In this document: positions 19,062-32,580 of the stretch, piece by piece
How the letters are laid out: every line of letters begins with the position of its first letter
Position numbering within the stretch: position 1 is the first letter of the stretch
From: an uncultured Lachnospiraceae bacterium
GTDB lineage: Bacteria; Bacillota; Clostridia; Lachnospirales; Lachnospiraceae
Direction of reading: 5' to 3'
Length of the DNA stretch: 32,928 nucleotides
Assembly: GCA_947625775.1 (NCBI GenBank)
Contig: CANQPM010000029.1
Span: 1-32,928, forward strand
The notes under the pieces: generated by a model
Database searches by the model: none
Told to the model about the DNA's origin: nothing
Seen by the model: the letters and a program-made list of their open reading frames with translations, nothing else
Translations under genes and position numbers: made by a program

Positions 19062-19104
19062 GCCGCGCCGCCGCATATAATAGGTAACAACGGCTATGAT
19101 ATGC

Positions 19105-19118
19105 GAGGTATAAGTTTG
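19105..19118 (+). promoter_or_regulatory. Ribosome site deciding a TTG start for the S8 peptidase
   Basis: GAGG at 19105-19108 stands seven bases before TTG at 19116. The in-frame ATG at 19101 has no ribosome site at a usable distance, and its codons overlap this site. Confidence 0.5.
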
Positions 19119-20843
19119 ACCTGCAGGGAACGTATTTTGTCAAATGACTACAGCGACTGGATTATAGACTTTACTTTAGACGATGGGAGCCTGCGGCAGA
19201 TAGGCGATGATTATTGTTACCACGTAGTAAACAGCAATCTTGTGATAGCCTATATAAATAAGACGGCGGCAATAAACAGCAATGCGGAGTTTAGAAGGTC
19301 ATTCTATTCATTCCTGCCAAAATGCTACGGGCTTATGGAAAGCCCGCCGAGTTTCCTCGGTCAAGGCATGAGCCTGAATACGCTCAGTCTTTCGGCATCA
19401 GGGATTCTGGAAATCCAAAGGCCGCCGCTCAGCCTTACTGGAAAAAACGTAGTCATAGGCTTTATAGACACGGGAATACGTTATCAGGAGCCTGTATTCA
19501 GAAACTTTGCGGGGAAAAGCCGTATTTTAAGCATATGGGACCAGACTATACAGACGGGAACTCCGCCAGAGGACTTTGAGTATGGCAGCGAGTACACAAA
19601 CGAGATGATTAACGAGGCGCTTGAAAGTGACAATCCATTTTCAATCGTGCCGAGCACCGACGTAAACGGTCACGGAAGCGCAATGGCAAGCGTGGCGGCG
19701 GGAAGCCCCATAGAGGGCGGAAGGTTTACAGGCGCTGCGCCCGACAGCGATATAGTTGTGGTAAAACTCAAGGAGGCAAAGCCGTACCTGCGCGACTACT
19801 ATAAAATACCGATGGGTGTGCCGTGCTACAGCGAGACGGACATAATTCAGGCGGTGCAGTACCTGCAGAAATATGTAGAGGTTTTAAGCCGCCCGCTTGT
19901 AGTCTGCCTTGGTATAGGCACGAGTACGGGCGACCATATGGGGCTTGGAATGCTTGGCAGCTATATGGATTATTTGAGCAGGCAGAAAAGCCGTGTCTTT
20001 GTAGTGGCAGTGGGCAATGAGGGCAATGCGGCGCACCATTTTCACGGCGAGATAAATATGCGCGAGACATATCAGGACGTGGAGCTTAGGGTGGGCGAAA
20101 ACGAAAACGGCTTTGTGATGGACGTGTGGGGCGATGCGCCCTATTTTTACAGTGCCACGATACGCACTCCCGGCGGCGAAAGCATAAGGTGGAACAACCC
20201 GCGCGGAAACGCCCCGCAGGAGTTTAATTTTGTGTATGAAAAAACGAGGATACTTATAGAATATCTGCTTGTTGAGCAGTCTTCGGGGGCAGAGCTTATC
20301 CGCATGAGATTTACAAATCCCACGGCGGGAGTGTGGAACATACGCGTAAATTCCGAGGGAATGGCTGTCGGCGGCGGCTTTGACATATGGCTGCCGATCA
20401 CGCAGTTTTTATTCTCGGAAACATATTTCCTTGAGCCCAGCCCGTACATCACAATCACTGAGCCTGGCTATGTATATGGCGTCGTCACGGTGGCAAATTA
20501 CCAGACGTCAAACAACAGCATTTATTCCTCGTCAGGCAGGGGTTATGCGCGGGACAATTTCGTAGTGCCCGATATCGCGGCGCCAGGGGTAAATGTGTCC
20601 ACGCCATTCGGCGAGCGCACGGGCTCAAGCATCTCAGCGGCGATAACGGCAGGCGGCTGCGCCCAGCTGATGCAGTGGGCGGTGGTGGAGGGCAATGATT
20701 TTCTCGTCAATTCGATAAACATAAGAAATTACCTGATACGCGGTGCAGAGAGAGACGATTTCCTTGAATATCCCAACCGCGAATGGGGCTATGGGCGGCT
20801 GAATATTGCGGGCGTGTTTGATTTTCTCGCAGGGCTTGGTTAG
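19116..20843 (+). CDS. S8 subtilisin-family serine peptidase (clostridial Csp-like)
   Basis: 575 residues from the TTG start (580 if ATG 19101 is used). From TTG the protein begins MTCRERILSNDYSDWI, which resembles clostridial S8 family N-termini. The triad is complete: Asp118 in GFIDTGIRY, His186 in NGHGSAMASVAAG and Ser505 in TGSSISAAITAG, with oxyanion Asn301 in VGNEGN. The usual Pro after the serine motif is replaced by Ala. A long insertion between about 305 and 470 is predicted beta-rich, as in CspB-type and related peptidases. No signal peptide is seen. Csp relatives process germination hydrolases, but similar peptidases occur in non-spore contexts, so the target is unknown. Confidence 0.87.
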   Translation: MTCRERILSNDYSDWIIDFTLDDGSLRQIGDDYCYHVVNSNLVIAYINKTAAINSNAEFRRSFYSFLPKCYGLMESPPSFLGQGMSLNTLSLSASGILEIQRPPLSLTGKNVVIGFIDTGIRYQEPVFRNFAGKSRILSIWDQTIQTGTPPEDFEYGSEYTNEMINEALESDNPFSIVPSTDVNGHGSAMASVAAGSPIEGGRFTGAAPDSDIVVVKLKEAKPYLRDYYKIPMGVPCYSETDIIQAVQYLQKYVEVLSRPLVVCLGIGTSTGDHMGLGMLGSYMDYLSRQKSRVFVVAVGNEGNAAHHFHGEINMRETYQDVELRVGENENGFVMDVWGDAPYFYSATIRTPGGESIRWNNPRGNAPQEFNFVYEKTRILIEYLLVEQSSGAELIRMRFTNPTAGVWNIRVNSEGMAVGGGFDIWLPITQFLFSETYFLEPSPYITITEPGYVYGVVTVANYQTSNNSIYSSSGRGYARDNFVVPDIAAPGVNVSTPFGERTGSSISAAITAGGCAQLMQWAVVEGNDFLVNSINIRNYLIRGAERDDFLEYPNREWGYGRLNIAGVFDFLAGLG

Positions 20844-26363: not shown

Positions 26364-28904
26364 ATGAGAAAGCAAGGAAAGCTGTCAGCATTGGGAATTG
26401 TGCAGAAATTATATAAAGTTCATGATGATATCAGACAGAGCATAAACAATAAAGCTGCTGTTTACGCCATGCAGCTTTTGTCTGACTGCCAGCAGAGCGC
26501 CATCGAGCTTGGCAGCCTAATCGAGCAGACAGAGGGCGAAGGCTTTGTCACTGTAAAATATATAGAAGATTATTGCGAGCTTTTGTATAATAATTATCAG
26601 GCGCTTGACAATGCGGAAGAGGTTAATTCTAACAAGGTCTATAAGGTTCTTCGCAAATATCTTGTGCAAATCGAGAACAGCATAAGGAATGATATTTCAG
26701 TAAAGCTGGAGGCTGTATTTTTGCCGTATAAGGCTTCAATGTGGGATTCACTTGAGAGCATATGGAAGGCGGCGGATGCAGATCCTGATTGTGATGCATA
26801 TGTAGTTCCTATTCCATATTATGATAAAAATCCGGATGGTAGCTATAAAAAGGAGCATTATGAGGGAGGTTTATACCCTGATTATGTGCCGATTACGAGA
26901 TTTGATGAATATGATATTGCTAAAAGGCATCCTGATATTATTTTTATACATAATCCTTATGATAATAATAATTTGGTTACAAGTGTGCACCCTGATTTTT
27001 TTTCGGATAAGCTGAAGAAGTGTACGGAGTTGTTGGTGTATGTGCCGTATTATTCGACAACGGGCGACATGAGCGAAGGACAAAGGAGCTGCCCCGTGTA
27101 CTATAATGCGGATTATATTATCATACAGGCGGAGAAGTACAGAAGCTTTTTTGACGCGGCGCTGCCTCAGGACAAGCTTTTGGCGCTGGGCTCTCCTAAA
27201 TTTGACAGAGTTATAAATATATGTAAGAATCCGCCCGAACCGCCTGCCGATTGGAAAGAGAAAATGGCGGGAAAAAAGGTCTATTTTTACAATACAAGCA
27301 TAGGTGGTATACTTGGAAATACTGAAAAATTTTTGAAAAAAATGAAGTATGTGTTCAAATGCTTTGAAGGAAGAACGGACGCATGCCTGATATGGCGTCC
27401 TCATCCGCTTTTAGAGTCAACACTGGATTCGATGAGGATGATATATAAAGAAGAATTTCTCAGGATTAAGGAGCAGTTTATAAACAGTGGAACAGGTATA
27501 TATGACGAGACATCGGATATTACGAATACTATAGCGCTATGTGACGCATATGTCGGAGATCCGTGGACAAGCGTGACGTCATTGTTTGGCATTGCGGGCA
27601 AGCCGTTGTTTATATTGAATAATAACATTGATACTGTGCCAGCAGAGAACGACTGGCGGGGGCAGATTATTAGCGGATTTTCCGCTGTGGGAAGCCATAA
27701 GTGGCTGATAGTGTCAGGGACAAGGCTTTATCACTCGCCTGATGATAACTATAAGTATGAATATTATTGTGATTTGTCAGAGTATTCAGGCGGATATTAT
27801 TATTCACAGGTGATGGAGATAAACGATAAAAATTATGTCTGCCCTGCCAATGCGAATGATATCTTAGTAGTTGATGATAGGAAAATTGTAAAGCGTATCA
27901 GTCTGCATGTGCAACTTAAGGAGTCGGGGGCATTTTACGGTGCGCTAAGAAGCGGCGATTACCTGATCTTGTTGCCTAATAAATATCCTGCGATAGTGCG
28001 CTATAATACTGTTACTGAGAAACTTGATTATCTGAATAAAAATACGGACATTATTTTGGCTGTTGTGAACGGTGAAAGACGTTTCGGCGGCGCATGTGAA
28101 AAGGACGGGCACATATATATAGGTTCTCCTGTAAGCCCCAAGGCAGTTGATATTGAAGTCGCGACAGGCAAAGAAACGGTGTTGGAGATAAAATCCGCAA
28201 ATTATGGCGGCTGTATGATAATGCAGTGCGACGGTGAAAAAATGTGGATTATGCCATATACCGGAAATACGATCATATGTTGGGATCCCGCCGACGGCAG
28301 TACCACGAAATATGCCTGTCAGGTCGAAGGATTCGAGTGTATCAATCCGATTTTAGGATATAAGTGTGGTGACAGAGCTTTTGGACGCTGCGCTTTCTAT
28401 AACGATTATGTTTACGTTACGCCCTATTGGGGAAACGAGTATATCAGGATTAACAGGCAAAATGGCGAAATCGTGAAATGGCGTCCTCCGTTTGAGAGGA
28501 CAAGGAAGGCTGCCAACGGATATTTCTTTGCGGGGGCAGAGAGCACATTCATTTATGCAGTTGACGGAAAGAGCGCAGGCAGCGTATGGCGTCTGTTCTC
28601 GATATATGACAGAAGGCTGTACGACATAAATATTGAAACTAATGATTATAAGGAAATATCAGTTGAATTTGACTTAGAGGAATTAAAGGAAAAAGCGGAC
28701 GGATTTAGCGAATATTCGGAATGGTTGATGTATGCCTGTATGGAGGATGCGTTTAATTCCTTGCCTGACTTTTTGGATGGTAATATTACGGGAAATCAGT
28801 TCAATAGGGACAGACAGCTTAAGGCTTACAGCCAAATCGCGGCAAATTATGACGGCACATGCGGCGCGAAGGTATATGATTTTATGCGCGGAAAGCTTAA
28901 ATAG
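26364..28904 (+). CDS. CDP-glycerol glycerophosphotransferase-like protein with C-terminal propeller-like domain
   Basis: 846 residues with no signal peptide or membrane segment. Residues 1-112 are helical. Residues about 113-430 resemble the GT-B-like transferase fold of the CDP-glycerol glycerophosphotransferase family: LIWRPHPLLES (RPHP at 345-348) and CDAYVGDPWTSVTSLFGIAGKPLFIL, where the family usually has a SDVLITDYSS-like motif. From about 450 to 790 there are repeated beta-strand blocks (for example KDGHIYIGSPVSPKAV, CDGEKMWIMPYTG, YNDYVYVTPYWGN) that look like a propeller. GAAAGGA precedes the ATG. It heads a cluster with a cytidylyltransferase fusion, a GDPD and LicD. Transferase activity is inferred; the altered motif could mean a different donor or loss of activity. 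Confidence 0.7.
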   Translation: MRKQGKLSALGIVQKLYKVHDDIRQSINNKAAVYAMQLLSDCQQSAIELGSLIEQTEGEGFVTVKYIEDYCELLYNNYQALDNAEEVNSNKVYKVLRKYLVQIENSIRNDISVKLEAVFLPYKASMWDSLESIWKAADADPDCDAYVVPIPYYDKNPDGSYKKEHYEGGLYPDYVPITRFDEYDIAKRHPDIIFIHNPYDNNNLVTSVHPDFFSDKLKKCTELLVYVPYYSTTGDMSEGQRSCPVYYNADYIIIQAEKYRSFFDAALPQDKLLALGSPKFDRVINICKNPPEPPADWKEKMAGKKVYFYNTSIGGILGNTEKFLKKMKYVFKCFEGRTDACLIWRPHPLLESTLDSMRMIYKEEFLRIKEQFINSGTGIYDETSDITNTIALCDAYVGDPWTSVTSLFGIAGKPLFILNNNIDTVPAENDWRGQIISGFSAVGSHKWLIVSGTRLYHSPDDNYKYEYYCDLSEYSGGYYYSQVMEINDKNYVCPANANDILVVDDRKIVKRISLHVQLKESGAFYGALRSGDYLILLPNKYPAIVRYNTVTEKLDYLNKNTDIILAVVNGERRFGGACEKDGHIYIGSPVSPKAVDIEVATGKETVLEIKSANYGGCMIMQCDGEKMWIMPYTGNTIICWDPADGSTTKYACQVEGFECINPILGYKCGDRAFGRCAFYNDYVYVTPYWGNEYIRINRQNGEIVKWRPPFERTRKAANGYFFAGAESTFIYAVDGKSAGSVWRLFSIYDRRLYDINIETNDYKEISVEFDLEELKEKADGFSEYSEWLMYACMEDAFNSLPDFLDGNITGNQFNRDRQLKAYSQIAANYDGTCGAKVYDFMRGKLK

Positions 28905-28940
28905 GGCGTAAGTAACACATAAAAACAGGAGGCAGTAGTC

Positions 28941-30299
28941 ATGGTAAAAGTAATTACATACGGTACGTTTGACCTGTTTCACGAAGGTCATTACAGGCTG
29001 CTGCAGAGGGCAAAGCAACTTGGAGATTATCTGATAGTAGGCGTTACGACAGAGGAGTACGACCAGGCAAGAGGCAAATTAAATGTAATCGACTCGCTTG
29101 TGACAAGAATCGAAAATGTCAAAAAAACAGGGTTTGCCGATGAAGTGATCGTAGAAGAATCCGCAGGTCAGAAGTTTCAGGATATTAAGAAATATCATAT
29201 AGACATTTTCACTGTAGGTTCAGACTGGATTGGAAAATTTGATTATCTCAAGGATTACTGCAAGGTTGTATACCTTGAAAGGACAAAGAATATCTCAAGC
29301 ACAATGCTGCGAGAGCAGAATAAGCGCATACAGCGGATTGGAATCATAGGCACAGGCAGAATAGCGAAAAGGTTTATGCCAGAGGCGGCATGTGTCAGCG
29401 GAATAAGTGTTCAGGGGGTATACAATCCCCATATTGGCAGCGCTGAGAGTTTTGCAAAAAGCCACGATATAGATTGTTATGAAACATTAGATGATTTTTT
29501 CTCGGCGGTGGATGCTGTTTACATAGCGTCTCCGCATCAGACACACTATGGATATGTCCAAGCGGCGCTTGAGCATGGAAAGCACGTATTATGTGAGAAG
29601 CCGATGACGCTTGATAGGCGCCATGCAGAACAGCTCTTTAATATGGCAAAAGAACGTAATCTGATACTGTTCGAGGGAATAAAGACAGCATATTGCCCGG
29701 GATTTATCAAGCTTATGGGCATAGCCTGCAGCGGCGCGATAGGGAGTATTAAAAGTGTTGAGGCGTGTTTTACGAAACTTGAAGATGAGGACAGCAGGGA
29801 GCTTACCGATTTGAAGTATGGCGGGAGTATGTTGGAGCTTGGAAGCTATTGCCTGCTGCCGATAATAAAAATCCTTGGGGTTGATTATGAAAGGTTAAGC
29901 TTTGATACGGTCAATGGAGACAACAACCTTGATATATTGACAAAGGCATATTTTAAATATCCTAATGCTGTAGCGACGGCAACATGCGGACTTGGTGTAA
30001 AGTCGGAAGGGCAGCTTATCATATCGGGAACTAAAGGCTATATACTGGCGGAGGCGCCTTGGTGGAAAACGAATTATTTTGAGGTGCGCCATGAAAATCC
30101 CGATGATGTGGAGAAATTTTCGGCAAGATTTTTGGGTGACGGGCTTAGATATGAGATAAGCGATTTCCTGTCTATGATAAACGGAAGCGCAAAGAGCGAA
30201 TTTAAGCTGACGCGAAGCGAATCGGTCGCATTTGCTGATATAATGGGGAAATTTTTGGAGACGGAAAAGAGGAATTTAGATGAAAATCTGGGCGCATAG
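28941..30299 (+). CDS. Cytidylyltransferase fused to a Gfo/Idh/MocA oxidoreductase
   Basis: 452 residues, two enzymes in one chain. Residues 1-128 are a TagD-type nucleotidyltransferase: TYGTFDLFHEGH with HxGH at 14-17, and RTKNISST at 114-121, the second nucleotide motif. Glycerol-3-phosphate cytidylyltransferases of this type make CDP-glycerol from CTP. Residues about 130-445 are a Gfo/Idh/MocA NAD(P)-dependent oxidoreductase with GIIGTGRIA (134-142) and CEKPMTLD carrying the EKP motif at 219-221. AGGAGG precedes the ATG. It follows the transferase-like gene by 36 bases and overlaps the GDPD gene by 20. By analogy with fused ribitol-5-phosphate reductase/cytidylyltransferase enzymes it may make and activate a polyol phosphate, but this pairing of folds is different. 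Confidence 0.88.
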   Translation: MVKVITYGTFDLFHEGHYRLLQRAKQLGDYLIVGVTTEEYDQARGKLNVIDSLVTRIENVKKTGFADEVIVEESAGQKFQDIKKYHIDIFTVGSDWIGKFDYLKDYCKVVYLERTKNISSTMLREQNKRIQRIGIIGTGRIAKRFMPEAACVSGISVQGVYNPHIGSAESFAKSHDIDCYETLDDFFSAVDAVYIASPHQTHYGYVQAALEHGKHVLCEKPMTLDRRHAEQLFNMAKERNLILFEGIKTAYCPGFIKLMGIACSGAIGSIKSVEACFTKLEDEDSRELTDLKYGGSMLELGSYCLLPIIKILGVDYERLSFDTVNGDNNLDILTKAYFKYPNAVATATCGLGVKSEGQLIISGTKGYILAEAPWWKTNYFEVRHENPDDVEKFSARFLGDGLRYEISDFLSMINGSAKSEFKLTRSESVAFADIMGKFLETEKRNLDENLGA

Positions 30300-31008
30300 A
30301 GGGTGCAGTCAGAATTATCCGGAAAATACGCTGACATCATTTGAGAAAGCAATTCAAATCAAGGGATTGACAGGAATAGAGCTTGACATACAACTTACAA
30401 AGGACGGGCATATGGTGGTTATCCATGATGAAAAAGTGGATAGGACTACGAATGGCAGGGGCGAAGTGCGAAATTATGCACTGTCTGAATTAAAGAAGTT
30501 GAAGATTAATGCGGGTGAAGGCAGATTTGAACAGGTACCCACAATAGATGAAGTATTTGATTTGCTGGAGAAAAGCCTTAAAAGCGGGTTGAAACTAAAT
30601 ATAGAATTGAAGAACAGCATATTTCCATATGCGGGAATGGAGAAGCAGATAATAGATTTGGTATATAAAAGAGGTTTGCAGGACAGCATAGTGTATTCGT
30701 CGTTTAGCGCTTTGTCAATAGAACGCATAAGGCAGATAGATTCAAGCGCGGAAACGGGAATACTGGACAGCAAAGTGTCAGATTGCCTTTATAAGCTAAA
30801 GGGCGGCTGTGGGGCGGATGCGCTGCATCCGTTTTGGAGAGGGATTGACTTGCCAAAGGAAAAACTGGAAGGATATACGGTGAGGGCATGGCTTACAGGG
30901 CATTTATATCCCGAAAAGCCGACAGGGACGGTGCTTGATTTGAAAGCGTTGGAGAATATCGGCATTACGGATGTGTTTTTGAATGAGCCTGAGGCTTATT
31001 TGAAATAG
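30280..31008 (+). CDS. Glycerophosphodiester phosphodiesterase family protein
   Basis: 242 residues of the GDPD TIM-barrel family, which hydrolyses glycerophosphodiesters to glycerol 3-phosphate and an alcohol. Key residues are in place: His6-Arg7 in AHRGCSQNYPENT, Glu35 and Asp37 in IELDIQLTKDGH, His49 in VIHDEKVDRTTNG and ELKN near 115. No signal peptide, so it acts in the cytosol. It begins inside the last codons of the fusion gene (20-bp overlap, GAGGAATTTAG as ribosome site), which suggests coupled translation. In this context it may supply glycerol 3-phosphate to the cytidylyltransferase domain or trim a polymer precursor. Confidence 0.93.
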   Translation: MKIWAHRGCSQNYPENTLTSFEKAIQIKGLTGIELDIQLTKDGHMVVIHDEKVDRTTNGRGEVRNYALSELKKLKINAGEGRFEQVPTIDEVFDLLEKSLKSGLKLNIELKNSIFPYAGMEKQIIDLVYKRGLQDSIVYSSFSALSIERIRQIDSSAETGILDSKVSDCLYKLKGGCGADALHPFWRGIDLPKEKLEGYTVRAWLTGHLYPEKPTGTVLDLKALENIGITDVFLNEPEAYLK

Positions 31009-31021
31009 ATTAAAATGCACT

Positions 31022-31038
31022 TTGACAATTTCATACTT
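31022..31038 (+). repeat. 17-bp direct repeat, copy 1
   Basis: TTGACAATTTCATACTT, 13 bases after the GDPD stop codon. An identical copy lies at 32603-32619, 22 bases after the LicD stop codon. Each precedes a gene of the PD-(D/E)XK type. Confidence 0.8.
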
Positions 31039-31053
31039 TATATGAGGATTTGT

Positions 31054-31082
31054 TTGCCATAGCGATTTCGTTTTGGTATAAT
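31054..31082 (+). promoter_or_regulatory. Promoter of the Uma2 family gene
   Basis: TTGCCA (31054-31059), 17-base spacer, TATAAT (31077-31082) preceded by TGG (extended -10). The predicted start is only about 17 bases before the ATG at 31106, just enough for the ribosome site. Confidence 0.7.
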
Positions 31083-31105
31083 AATGGCAGAATGGAGGGA
31101 TGCGT

Positions 31106-31651
31106 ATGGCATTGGTACAGAGGGACAGGATAAGGGACGAGAAAATTAACGGTGTGATTTTTGATATGTCGCCGTCACCACGATATGAGCATAGTATTAT
31201 CAATGGGAATCTTTACGCAATAATCAAGACAGGACTGAAAGATAGTATCTGCAAAGTGTTTTATGGGGACATAGATTATGTATATAATCCGAACTCTGAT
31301 GATTATCTGGAGCCTGACATTATAATATGCTGCGATAAAAATCAGATAAGGGGAAATTCGTATTATGGCACGCCTAAATTTGTTGCGGAAATCATAAGCC
31401 CGTCAACTGCGAAAAGGGATAAGACCATAAAGAAAGACATTTATGAAAATGCTGGAGTTGATGAATACTGGATTATATCACCTATTGAAAGGGCATTGGA
31501 GATTTATCATCTTAAAAGTGGAAGATATGAGCTTGTTGATATGTATGTAGTGGAAGATGATGAAAAAAGCGAGCATTACAATCTAAAAACAGAAGTAACG
31601 CTCAGGTGCTTTCCGATAACCATGACGCTGGAAGAGATATTTGCAATATAA
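31106..31651 (+). CDS. Uma2 family PD-(D/E)XK nuclease-like protein (DUF820)
   Basis: 181 residues. The restriction-endonuclease-like core is seen as EPDIIICCD, GTPKFVAEIISPSTAKRDKTIKK and YENAGVDEYWII, giving the Asp, Glu-x-Ser and Lys positions of the Uma2 family. Such proteins are abundant in cyanobacteria and some Clostridia; their role is unproven, with links to mobile DNA and defence suggested. Two in-frame ATGs exist (31100 and 31106); GGAGGG abuts the first and is well spaced for the second, so 31106 is chosen. It has its own promoter and terminator within the surface cluster and looks like an inserted single-gene unit. Confidence 0.88.
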   Translation: MALVQRDRIRDEKINGVIFDMSPSPRYEHSIINGNLYAIIKTGLKDSICKVFYGDIDYVYNPNSDDYLEPDIIICCDKNQIRGNSYYGTPKFVAEIISPSTAKRDKTIKKDIYENAGVDEYWIISPIERALEIYHLKSGRYELVDMYVVEDDEKSEHYNLKTEVTLRCFPITMTLEEIFAI

Positions 31652-31684
31652 GGGAAAATATTAAGTAAAAAATATAGAGAAAAT

Positions 31685-31736
31685 AAATCCTGATATAAAG
31701 TATGAAATTTTTAGGTGCTTTATATCGGGATTTTTT
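31685..31736 (+). terminator. Terminator after the Uma2 family gene
   Basis: 16-bp stem AAATCCTGATATAAAG (31685-31700) and CTTTATATCGGGATTT (31718-31733), one G-U pair, 17-base loop, followed by TTTATAT. The ATG at 31702 lies in its loop, which argues against that start for the LicD gene. Confidence 0.85.
31691..31699 (+). promoter_or_regulatory. Possible extended -10 within the terminator arm, for licD
   Basis: TGATATAAA: TATAAA with TGn before it, and no clear -35. A start near 31705 would fall in the loop, so the resulting RNA would lack the 5' arm and escape the terminator. It is the only promoter-like element I see before the LicD gene. Confidence 0.3.
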
Positions 31737-31767
31737 ATATTTTAAAATATCATATGAAAGGGTAAGA

Positions 31768-32580
31768 ATGATACAGCTTGATGACAGGACGCTGCGGCAG
31801 GTTCAACTGATACAGCTTGAAATGCTTACGGAGGTTGACAGGATATGCAGGAAATGCGGAATTAAATACAATATAATAGCAGGTACGCTGCTCGGTGCAG
31901 TGCGCCACGGCGGGTATATACCGTGGGATGATGATGCGGATGTAGCACTGTTGCGTCCCGAATATGAAAAATTTCGCAAGGCATGCAGGACGGAGCTTGA
32001 TAAAACGCGGTTTGTTTTTCAAGACCATAGAAATACAAAAGGCTACCGTTGGGGATATGGGAAAATTCGCAGGAAAGATACGCTGTTTCTGCGTGAGCAT
32101 CAGGAGCATATGCCGTATATGCAGGGGATATTCATTGATGTATTCCCGCTTGATGGGGTGCCTGACAACTATATGCTGAGGAGTATGAAGAACTTTGAAT
32201 GTTTCTGCATACGCAAGCTTTTATGGGCAAGAGTCGGAAAATACGCAGAAAAGAATCTGCTTAAGCGAAAGATATACAGGCTTTTGGACAAAGTGCCTGA
32301 AAAGATGATTTTTAGCTATTATCATATGATGATACGCAGGGCGAACGGCAGGCGGACAAGAATGGTTAGGATACTTACTTTCCCGACGCCGAATAATGAG
32401 TACGGGTATTACAGGTGCTGGTATGAGAACAGCGCGGACACAGTATTTGAGGGAAAAGTGTTTAAAGGAATTAAGGACTATGACAGCTATCTGAGCTTTA
32501 AATTCGGCAGTTATATGGAACTGCCGCCGATAGAGAAAAGGAAGGTGCATCCGGTGAGCAGGATAAAATTGCTTGAGTGA
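31768..32580 (+). CDS. LicD family phosphotransferase
   Basis: 270 residues. LicD proteins use CDP-activated donors to attach phosphocholine or similar groups to teichoic acids and other surface glycans, on the cytosolic face. The nucleotidyltransferase-like core is clear: IIAGTLLGAVRHGGYIPW followed by the acidic run DDDADVALLR at 54-63. The rest (GYGKIRRKDTLFLREHQEHM, IFIDVFPLDGVPDN) fits the family. The frame is open from 31702, but that ATG lies in a terminator loop, while AAGGGTAAGA precedes the ATG at 31768 and the start MIQLDDRTLRQVQLIQLEML is typical. It belongs functionally with the upstream CDP-polyol genes, though a Uma2 unit separates them. No licA/licC choline genes are seen. Confidence 0.9.
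   Translation: MIQLDDRTLRQVQLIQLEMLTEVDRICRKCGIKYNIIAGTLLGAVRHGGYIPWDDDADVALLRPEYEKFRKACRTELDKTRFVFQDHRNTKGYRWGYGKIRRKDTLFLREHQEHMPYMQGIFIDVFPLDGVPDNYMLRSMKNFECFCIRKLLWARVGKYAEKNLLKRKIYRLLDKVPEKMIFSYYHMMIRRANGRRTRMVRILTFPTPNNEYGYYRCWYENSADTVFEGKVFKGIKDYDSYLSFKFGSYMELPPIEKRKVHPVSRIKLLE

Follow-up and report, generated by a model that had tools for sequence, protein, structure and literature searches.

At the end of a contig from an uncultured Lachnospiraceae bacterium lies an operon which, in a reading that we hold at close to even confidence, makes a CDP-activated polyol and transfers the phospho-polyol to the glycans of the flagellar filament. The window, i.e., the whole stretch of 32,928 nucleotides that was analysed, is an entire contig of a 3.75 Mb genome, and four ORFs of the operon, designated A, B, GDPD and LicD, are all open and run in the same direction between positions 26364 and 32580. 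The features of the locus are as follows.

26364..28904, + strand: gene A, 846 aa (ORF, profile comparison and model)
26697..27653, + strand: phosphotransferase-like region of A, with conserved IHNPYD and WRPHPL motifs (alignment and profile-profile comparison)
27807..28481, + strand: beta-propeller region of A (structure model)
28941..30299, + strand: gene B, a fusion of 452 aa and candidate one-chain CDP-polyol synthase (Pfam and motifs)
28941..29315, + strand: TagD/GCT-type cytidylyltransferase domain of B, with HEGHY and RTKNISST (128.3 bits to 1coz)
29331..30299, + strand: Gfo/Idh/MocA reductase domain of B, with the GTGR NAD motif, the EKP catalytic lysine and the ELGSY tyrosine present
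29976..30098, + strand: residues 346-386 of B (GTKGY..APWWKT), retained even in B proteins without the reductase motifs
30280..31008, + strand: GDPD, 242 aa, sharing 20 bp with the 3' end of B (Pfam)
31100..31651, + strand: Uma2-family protein (Pfam)
31702..32580, + strand: LicD-family phosphotransferase, 292 aa (Pfam)

The original prediction had placed the four genes side by side and assigned them to these families, and this was borne out, the frames being open and B, GDPD and LicD scoring over their Pfam cut-offs. Absent from it was the fifth ORF, encoding the Uma2-family protein between GDPD and LicD; among the fetched loci Uma2 was found only in the window and in L014 and L015, its two closest relatives, and it is probably an insertion outside the conserved set. 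Since the contig stops 348 bp past LicD, any downstream partners are invisible here. The Pfam scan covered 25 ORFs of the window, leaving out three ORFs of at least 90 aa that overlap others or lie on the opposite strand, and its matches included trigger factor, ClpP, ClpX, Lon, PdxS/PdxT and HtrA. Elsewhere in the window, positions 19101-20840 encode a subtilase-family protein that resembles the CspC/CspBA germination pseudoproteases, with a score far under the cut-offs of those models.

Gene B is a candidate CDP-polyol synthase in one chain, judging from its domains and motifs. Its N-terminal part matched CTP_transf_like (68 bits) and its C-terminal part matched PF01408 GFO_IDH_MocA (100.9 bits) and PF22725 (30.2 bits), all over cut-off, and with these Pfam domains, the NAD motif and the EKP lysine all present the protein qualifies as a Gfo/Idh/MocA oxidoreductase. 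The N-terminal domain is closest to the glycerol-3-phosphate cytidylyltransferases 1coz, the B. subtilis-type enzyme, and 2b7l. The predicted structure of B was unusable (mean pLDDT 41.6, from 4 sequences). At E <= 1e-60, B was found in 56 of the 397 genomes sampled from the family of the window and in 13 of 391 genomes of the class, seven of these 13 lying outside the family. Of the 56, four (G267, G139, G112 and G252) have a match that is fragmentary or mainly to the reductase part, and two (G331 and G170) a partial one. Of 63 full-length B proteins, 39 retain the NAD motif together with the EKP lysine and are hereafter termed intact-type.

Gene A of the window gave no Pfam or NCBIfam match, including to PF04464 (Glyphos_transf, TagB/TagF), and a search of the A profile against PDB sequences returned no meaningful match. 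Its layout consists of an N-terminal helical bundle (~1-110), a remote TagF-type phosphotransferase domain (~112-430) and a C-terminal beta-propeller (~482-706). The N-terminal half aligned to a TagF-type profile with an hhalign probability of 92.2% (E 5.9e-7, 262 columns), the inputs being an alignment of 23 A relatives and one of 13 PF04464-type proteins, and 4 of the 23 A-family members matched PF04464 directly. The C-terminal half is a beta-propeller in the predicted model and by Foldseek, though the model is weak (mean pLDDT 55.9, 6 sequences) and usable only for the propeller and the N-terminal helices; the propeller is missing from shorter A relatives. Thus, the description of A as a glycerophosphotransferase-like/propeller protein holds only as a remote relationship. 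GenBank genomes yielded four relatives of the locus, 48-95% identical in A, and a more distant one, all from Lachnospiraceae. The host genome itself encodes a propeller-less A paralog on contig C11 (L012:7573-8994; 46% identity over 449 aa), which matches PF04464 and sits in a surface-polysaccharide cluster.

The remaining two enzymes were assigned directly, GDPD by PF03009 (116.6 bits) and LicD by PF04991 (123.4 bits), both over cut-off, LicD being the sole PF04991 match in the genome. LicD also gave a weak match (6kaj, E 6e-5) to fukutin-related protein, a CDP-ribitol user (PMC4873967).

The gene set recurs in other genomes, indicating that the grouping is more than chance. The original prediction had proposed to look for this, and the four genes were indeed found together: among the 39 intact-type loci, A immediately precedes B in 19, GDPD follows B at a distance of no more than three genes in 20, and LicD does so at no more than six genes in 18. 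The complete set is present in 12, counting the window and the two loci closest to it. In most loci with the conserved set, B is ~70% identical to that of the window. At one locus (L025) a different GDPD-domain protein occupies the place of GDPD.

The substrates, order of steps, product, acceptor and direction of the GDPD reaction are those that we infer, and the pathway would run as follows. The cytidylyltransferase domain of B would use CTP to activate a small keto- or aldose-phosphate, or the reduced form of it, and the Gfo/Idh/MocA domain on the same chain would reduce the carbonyl to give a CDP-polyol. In the C. jejuni HS:5 pathway, the formation of CDP-6-D-fructose precedes its reduction to CDP-6-D-glucitol (PMC10918830); by analogy, a ketose-phosphate might be activated first and then reduced on B, although the reduction might just as well come first. 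The phospho-polyol would next be passed to a glycan by A and/or LicD, forming a phosphodiester, and the propeller of A may hold the glycoprotein. GDPD could hydrolyse glycerophosphodiester-like products, either providing the phosphate precursor or trimming, a role that is a guess. The joint pathway put forward in the original prediction thus survives in part: the families are compatible with reduction, activation by CTP, transfer and hydrolysis, while its surface location is narrowed to a probably flagellar one by the flagellin counts that follow.

Flagellin was called with PF00669 at E <= 1e-30, which made 211 of the 397 family genomes positive. The gene-A family (E <= 1e-40) is present in 67 of the 397, and flagellin was found in all 67 as compared to 144 of the 330 others (Fisher 1.4e-21, a genome statistic computed without a tree); 58 genera contain the gene-A family, so that close kinship alone is an unlikely cause. 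Likewise, flagellin accompanies B in 31 of 31 genomes where B scores >500 bits, a cut chosen after the gap between 513 and 431 bits was seen, compared to 180 of the remaining 366, and genomes with a weaker B, which serve as an internal negative control, were at background (11/25). The link extends to the loci themselves: within the stretches fetched, which mostly span 19.5 kb and less where a contig ends, 9 of 34 intact-type loci have a flagellin when 1.1 were expected (P 8e-7, with each flagellin treated separately), the 34 being those left of 39 after dropping five that lacked a flagellin count, none of which has a flagellin in its stretch. Counting the flagellins listed, one lies within 10 kb of at least 9 of the 83 gene-A places. 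Furthermore, the order FliC, TPR-type GT2 glycosyltransferase, A, B was observed at four loci (L021, L022, L023 and L039) in three genomes, two of the loci sharing one. A separate locus (L018) carries a LicD-A fusion near a putative FliD, FliS and flagellin, the flagellin recognized by similarity and FliD and FliS by eye. An independent-pairs test for flagellin beside A, with 6 pairs on starred branches, gave no signal.

Other observations stand against the flagellar link. No flagellin was found on the window contig or in the stretches of L014 and L015, and the genomes of the window and these two closest relatives hold 9-12 flagellin-family matches away from the operon. A SigD-like motif before A in the window was at chance level with single-base shuffles as control, and with one mismatch the motif precedes 2 of 19 A genes. 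Co-occurrence with flagellin can follow kinship, and many of the 67 genomes hold only short or distant A relatives, which may have another job. Two genomes outside the family (G458 and G652) carry an intact-type B without flagellin, and in the host genome the flagellar island, on contig C19, includes a PF04464 gene of its own as well as AEP-type genes.

A gene group at L010:6661-14005 and L086 (host genome, C19) combines a PF04464 gene and an aminotransferase with a cytidylyltransferase fusion that matches TIGR01518 and with apparent phosphonate (2-aminoethylphosphonate-type) genes. It sits immediately ahead of genes for flagellar hook, flagellin and cap, and its phosphonate and flagellar assignments were made by eye from protein starts. 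The group may encode a second decoration of flagella, with phospho- or phosphono-groups.

The same chemistry could act on a capsule, wall or other surface polysaccharide, with flagellated species merely tending to carry it, an alternative that we consider unlikely, though far from negligible. It draws on the A paralog of the host, which lies among aminotransferase, pyruvyl transferase and GT2 genes, on the many B loci set amid capsule-type genes, on TagF-type genes (PF04464 family F5) at 13 of the first 50 loci, and on the two intact-type B genomes without flagellin outside the family; the flagellin counts for A (67/67), for B (31/31) and at the loci (9/34 against 1.1) speak against it. As to the donor, B might instead make ordinary CDP-glycerol for a teichoic-acid-like system, its reductase turning dihydroxyacetone phosphate into glycerol phosphate, and we regard this as doubtful, if with an appreciable chance. 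While 1coz and 2b7l are the nearest relatives of the N-terminal domain and the GDPD and TagF-like partners would suit such a system, B scored 116.3 bits (119.2 in the genome search), short of the 165.4-bit cut-off of TIGR01518, the glycerol-3-phosphate cytidylyltransferase equivalog model. In addition, intact-type B proteins have E at position 15 (37/39) and Y at position 18 (38/39), positions occupied in the known enzymes by W or Y and by I, respectively; and with ordinary G3P synthesis a dedicated reductase would be needless.

That the genes are chance neighbours, or hitch-hike loosely in one island while serving unrelated functions, is highly improbable: LicD, GDPD and A are each found without the others in some loci, but A before B at 19, GDPD after B at 20 and the full set at 12 of 39 loci, with B mostly ~70% identical, argue for a kept association. 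A phosphocholine (lic) reading was also entertained and dropped, no choline genes being seen among the scanned ORFs of the window.

Apart from the phospho-polyol operon as such, the B family offers a comparison of its own. The EKP lysine is lost in 24 of the 63 B proteins, nearly all of which also lack the NAD motif and the active tyrosine. In 21 of these degenerate proteins (three very divergent ones, L068, L070 and L078, being left out) and in all 39 intact ones, K354, G363, T364, G366, P373, W374, W375 and E385 are invariant, and the identity of degenerate B to that of the window is 65% in segment 346-386, 66% in the cytidylyltransferase and 33% in the NAD part. As the segment is kept where the reductase motifs are lost, it probably serves the cytidylyltransferase and not reduction catalysis. 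An aminotransferase of class I/II or V lies within three genes of B at 15 of 24 degenerate loci versus 2 of 39 intact ones; GDPD is found at 0 and A at 1 of the 24. On the tree, the reductase losses fall on just two branches, and an independent-pairs test of loss against aminotransferase yielded 2 pairs only and no signal, making this link a clade-level lead only. Possibly, the two B clades share a carbonyl precursor, which one would reduce and the other transaminate. At three loci (L041, L044 and L047) B is directly followed by another Gfo/Idh/MocA gene, which stands alone, resembles the C-terminal half of B and has intact motifs, and at L046 a similar gene with intact motifs lies a few genes away.

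A wider proposal, which we put forward tentatively and think rather doubtful, is that gene A represents a hitherto unrecognized, flagella-restricted phosphotransferase-propeller family that attaches CDP-activated polyols to flagellin glycans. The one-chain enzyme would provide the donor, its reductase would elsewhere have become a non-catalytic partner to the cytidylyltransferase while aminotransferases take over, and related operons would thereby switch between decorations with polyol-phosphate and with amino-polyol-phosphate.

Further gene combinations were seen at related loci. At L022:4493-7084, L031:1208-3706 and L039, LicD is followed by a TagD-like gene that stands alone and by a member of the PdxA family; at L022 and L031 a radical SAM/SPASM protein comes after these. 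L019:2348-5617, L055 and L058 carry an IspD-family gene paired with an SDR/epimerase, the same Pfam pair as in C. jejuni CDP-6-D-glucitol synthesis (PMC10918830). A glycyl radical enzyme (PF02901 and PF01228), with a possible activase recognized by eye, lies in a glycan cluster immediately past the operon at L016:7336-12771, and a 768-aa protein with a nucleotidyltransferase domain and an SHMT-like domain adjoins LicD at L024:17101-19404.

That flagellin can bear phosphodiester-linked small groups is documented for the b-type glycan of P. aeruginosa (PMC11833859) and the Type A glycan of C. difficile (PMC10714395). The latter, encoded by CD0240-CD0244, is one of the nearest known counterparts of the operon, having a phosphodiester for which a CDP-linked donor and a TagF-like transferase, CD0244, were proposed; it differs in an N-methyl-threonine donor part, a nucleotidyltransferase modelled on GDP-mannose pyrophosphorylase and a phosphoserine-phosphatase-like protein, whereas the operon has a TagD-type/Gfo fusion, GDPD and LicD, the families being set apart by description. 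C. jejuni HS5.18 and HS5.17, which make a CDP-polyol, resemble the candidate synthase B in combining a cytidylyltransferase with an NAD(P)H reductase, yet they are two chains, of PF01128 and of the SDR family PF01370 (PMC10918830), while B unites TagD-type and Gfo/Idh/MocA domains, unrelated to these, in one. The teichoic enzymes TagD and TagF share the cytidylyltransferase fold of B and the remote TagF-type region of A, but B falls under the TIGR01518 cut-off and the 25 scanned window ORFs lack the wall teichoic acid pathway set (TagO, TagA, TagB/F and TagGH together), as they lack any teichoic or choline gene. The lic phosphocholine system has the LicD family in common with the operon and differs by its choline kinase, CTP:phosphocholine cytidylyltransferase and choline transporter, which are absent from the scanned ORFs. 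The original prediction was right that TagO, TagGH and licABC are missing from these ORFs; the absence of TagA and TagB that it stated, like that of TagF-type genes, applies to the window only, as elsewhere the genome has a WecG/TagA-family gene (contig C6) and two PF04464 matches (C19 and C11).

CDP-polyol activation, phosphotransfer and phosphodiester modification of flagellin are thus known, while this set of genes and the architecture of the enzyme seem not to have been described in the open-licence papers searched, among which we found none on the cassette. Lachnospiraceae flagellins are abundant in the gut, and the literature found says little about their glycans. The B clades, with an intact reductase in one and a degenerate reductase beside aminotransferases in the other, provide a natural comparison, and the operon predicts a phosphate-bearing decoration of the filament and a donor synthase of new architecture, by which the unannotated gene A becomes a testable enzyme.
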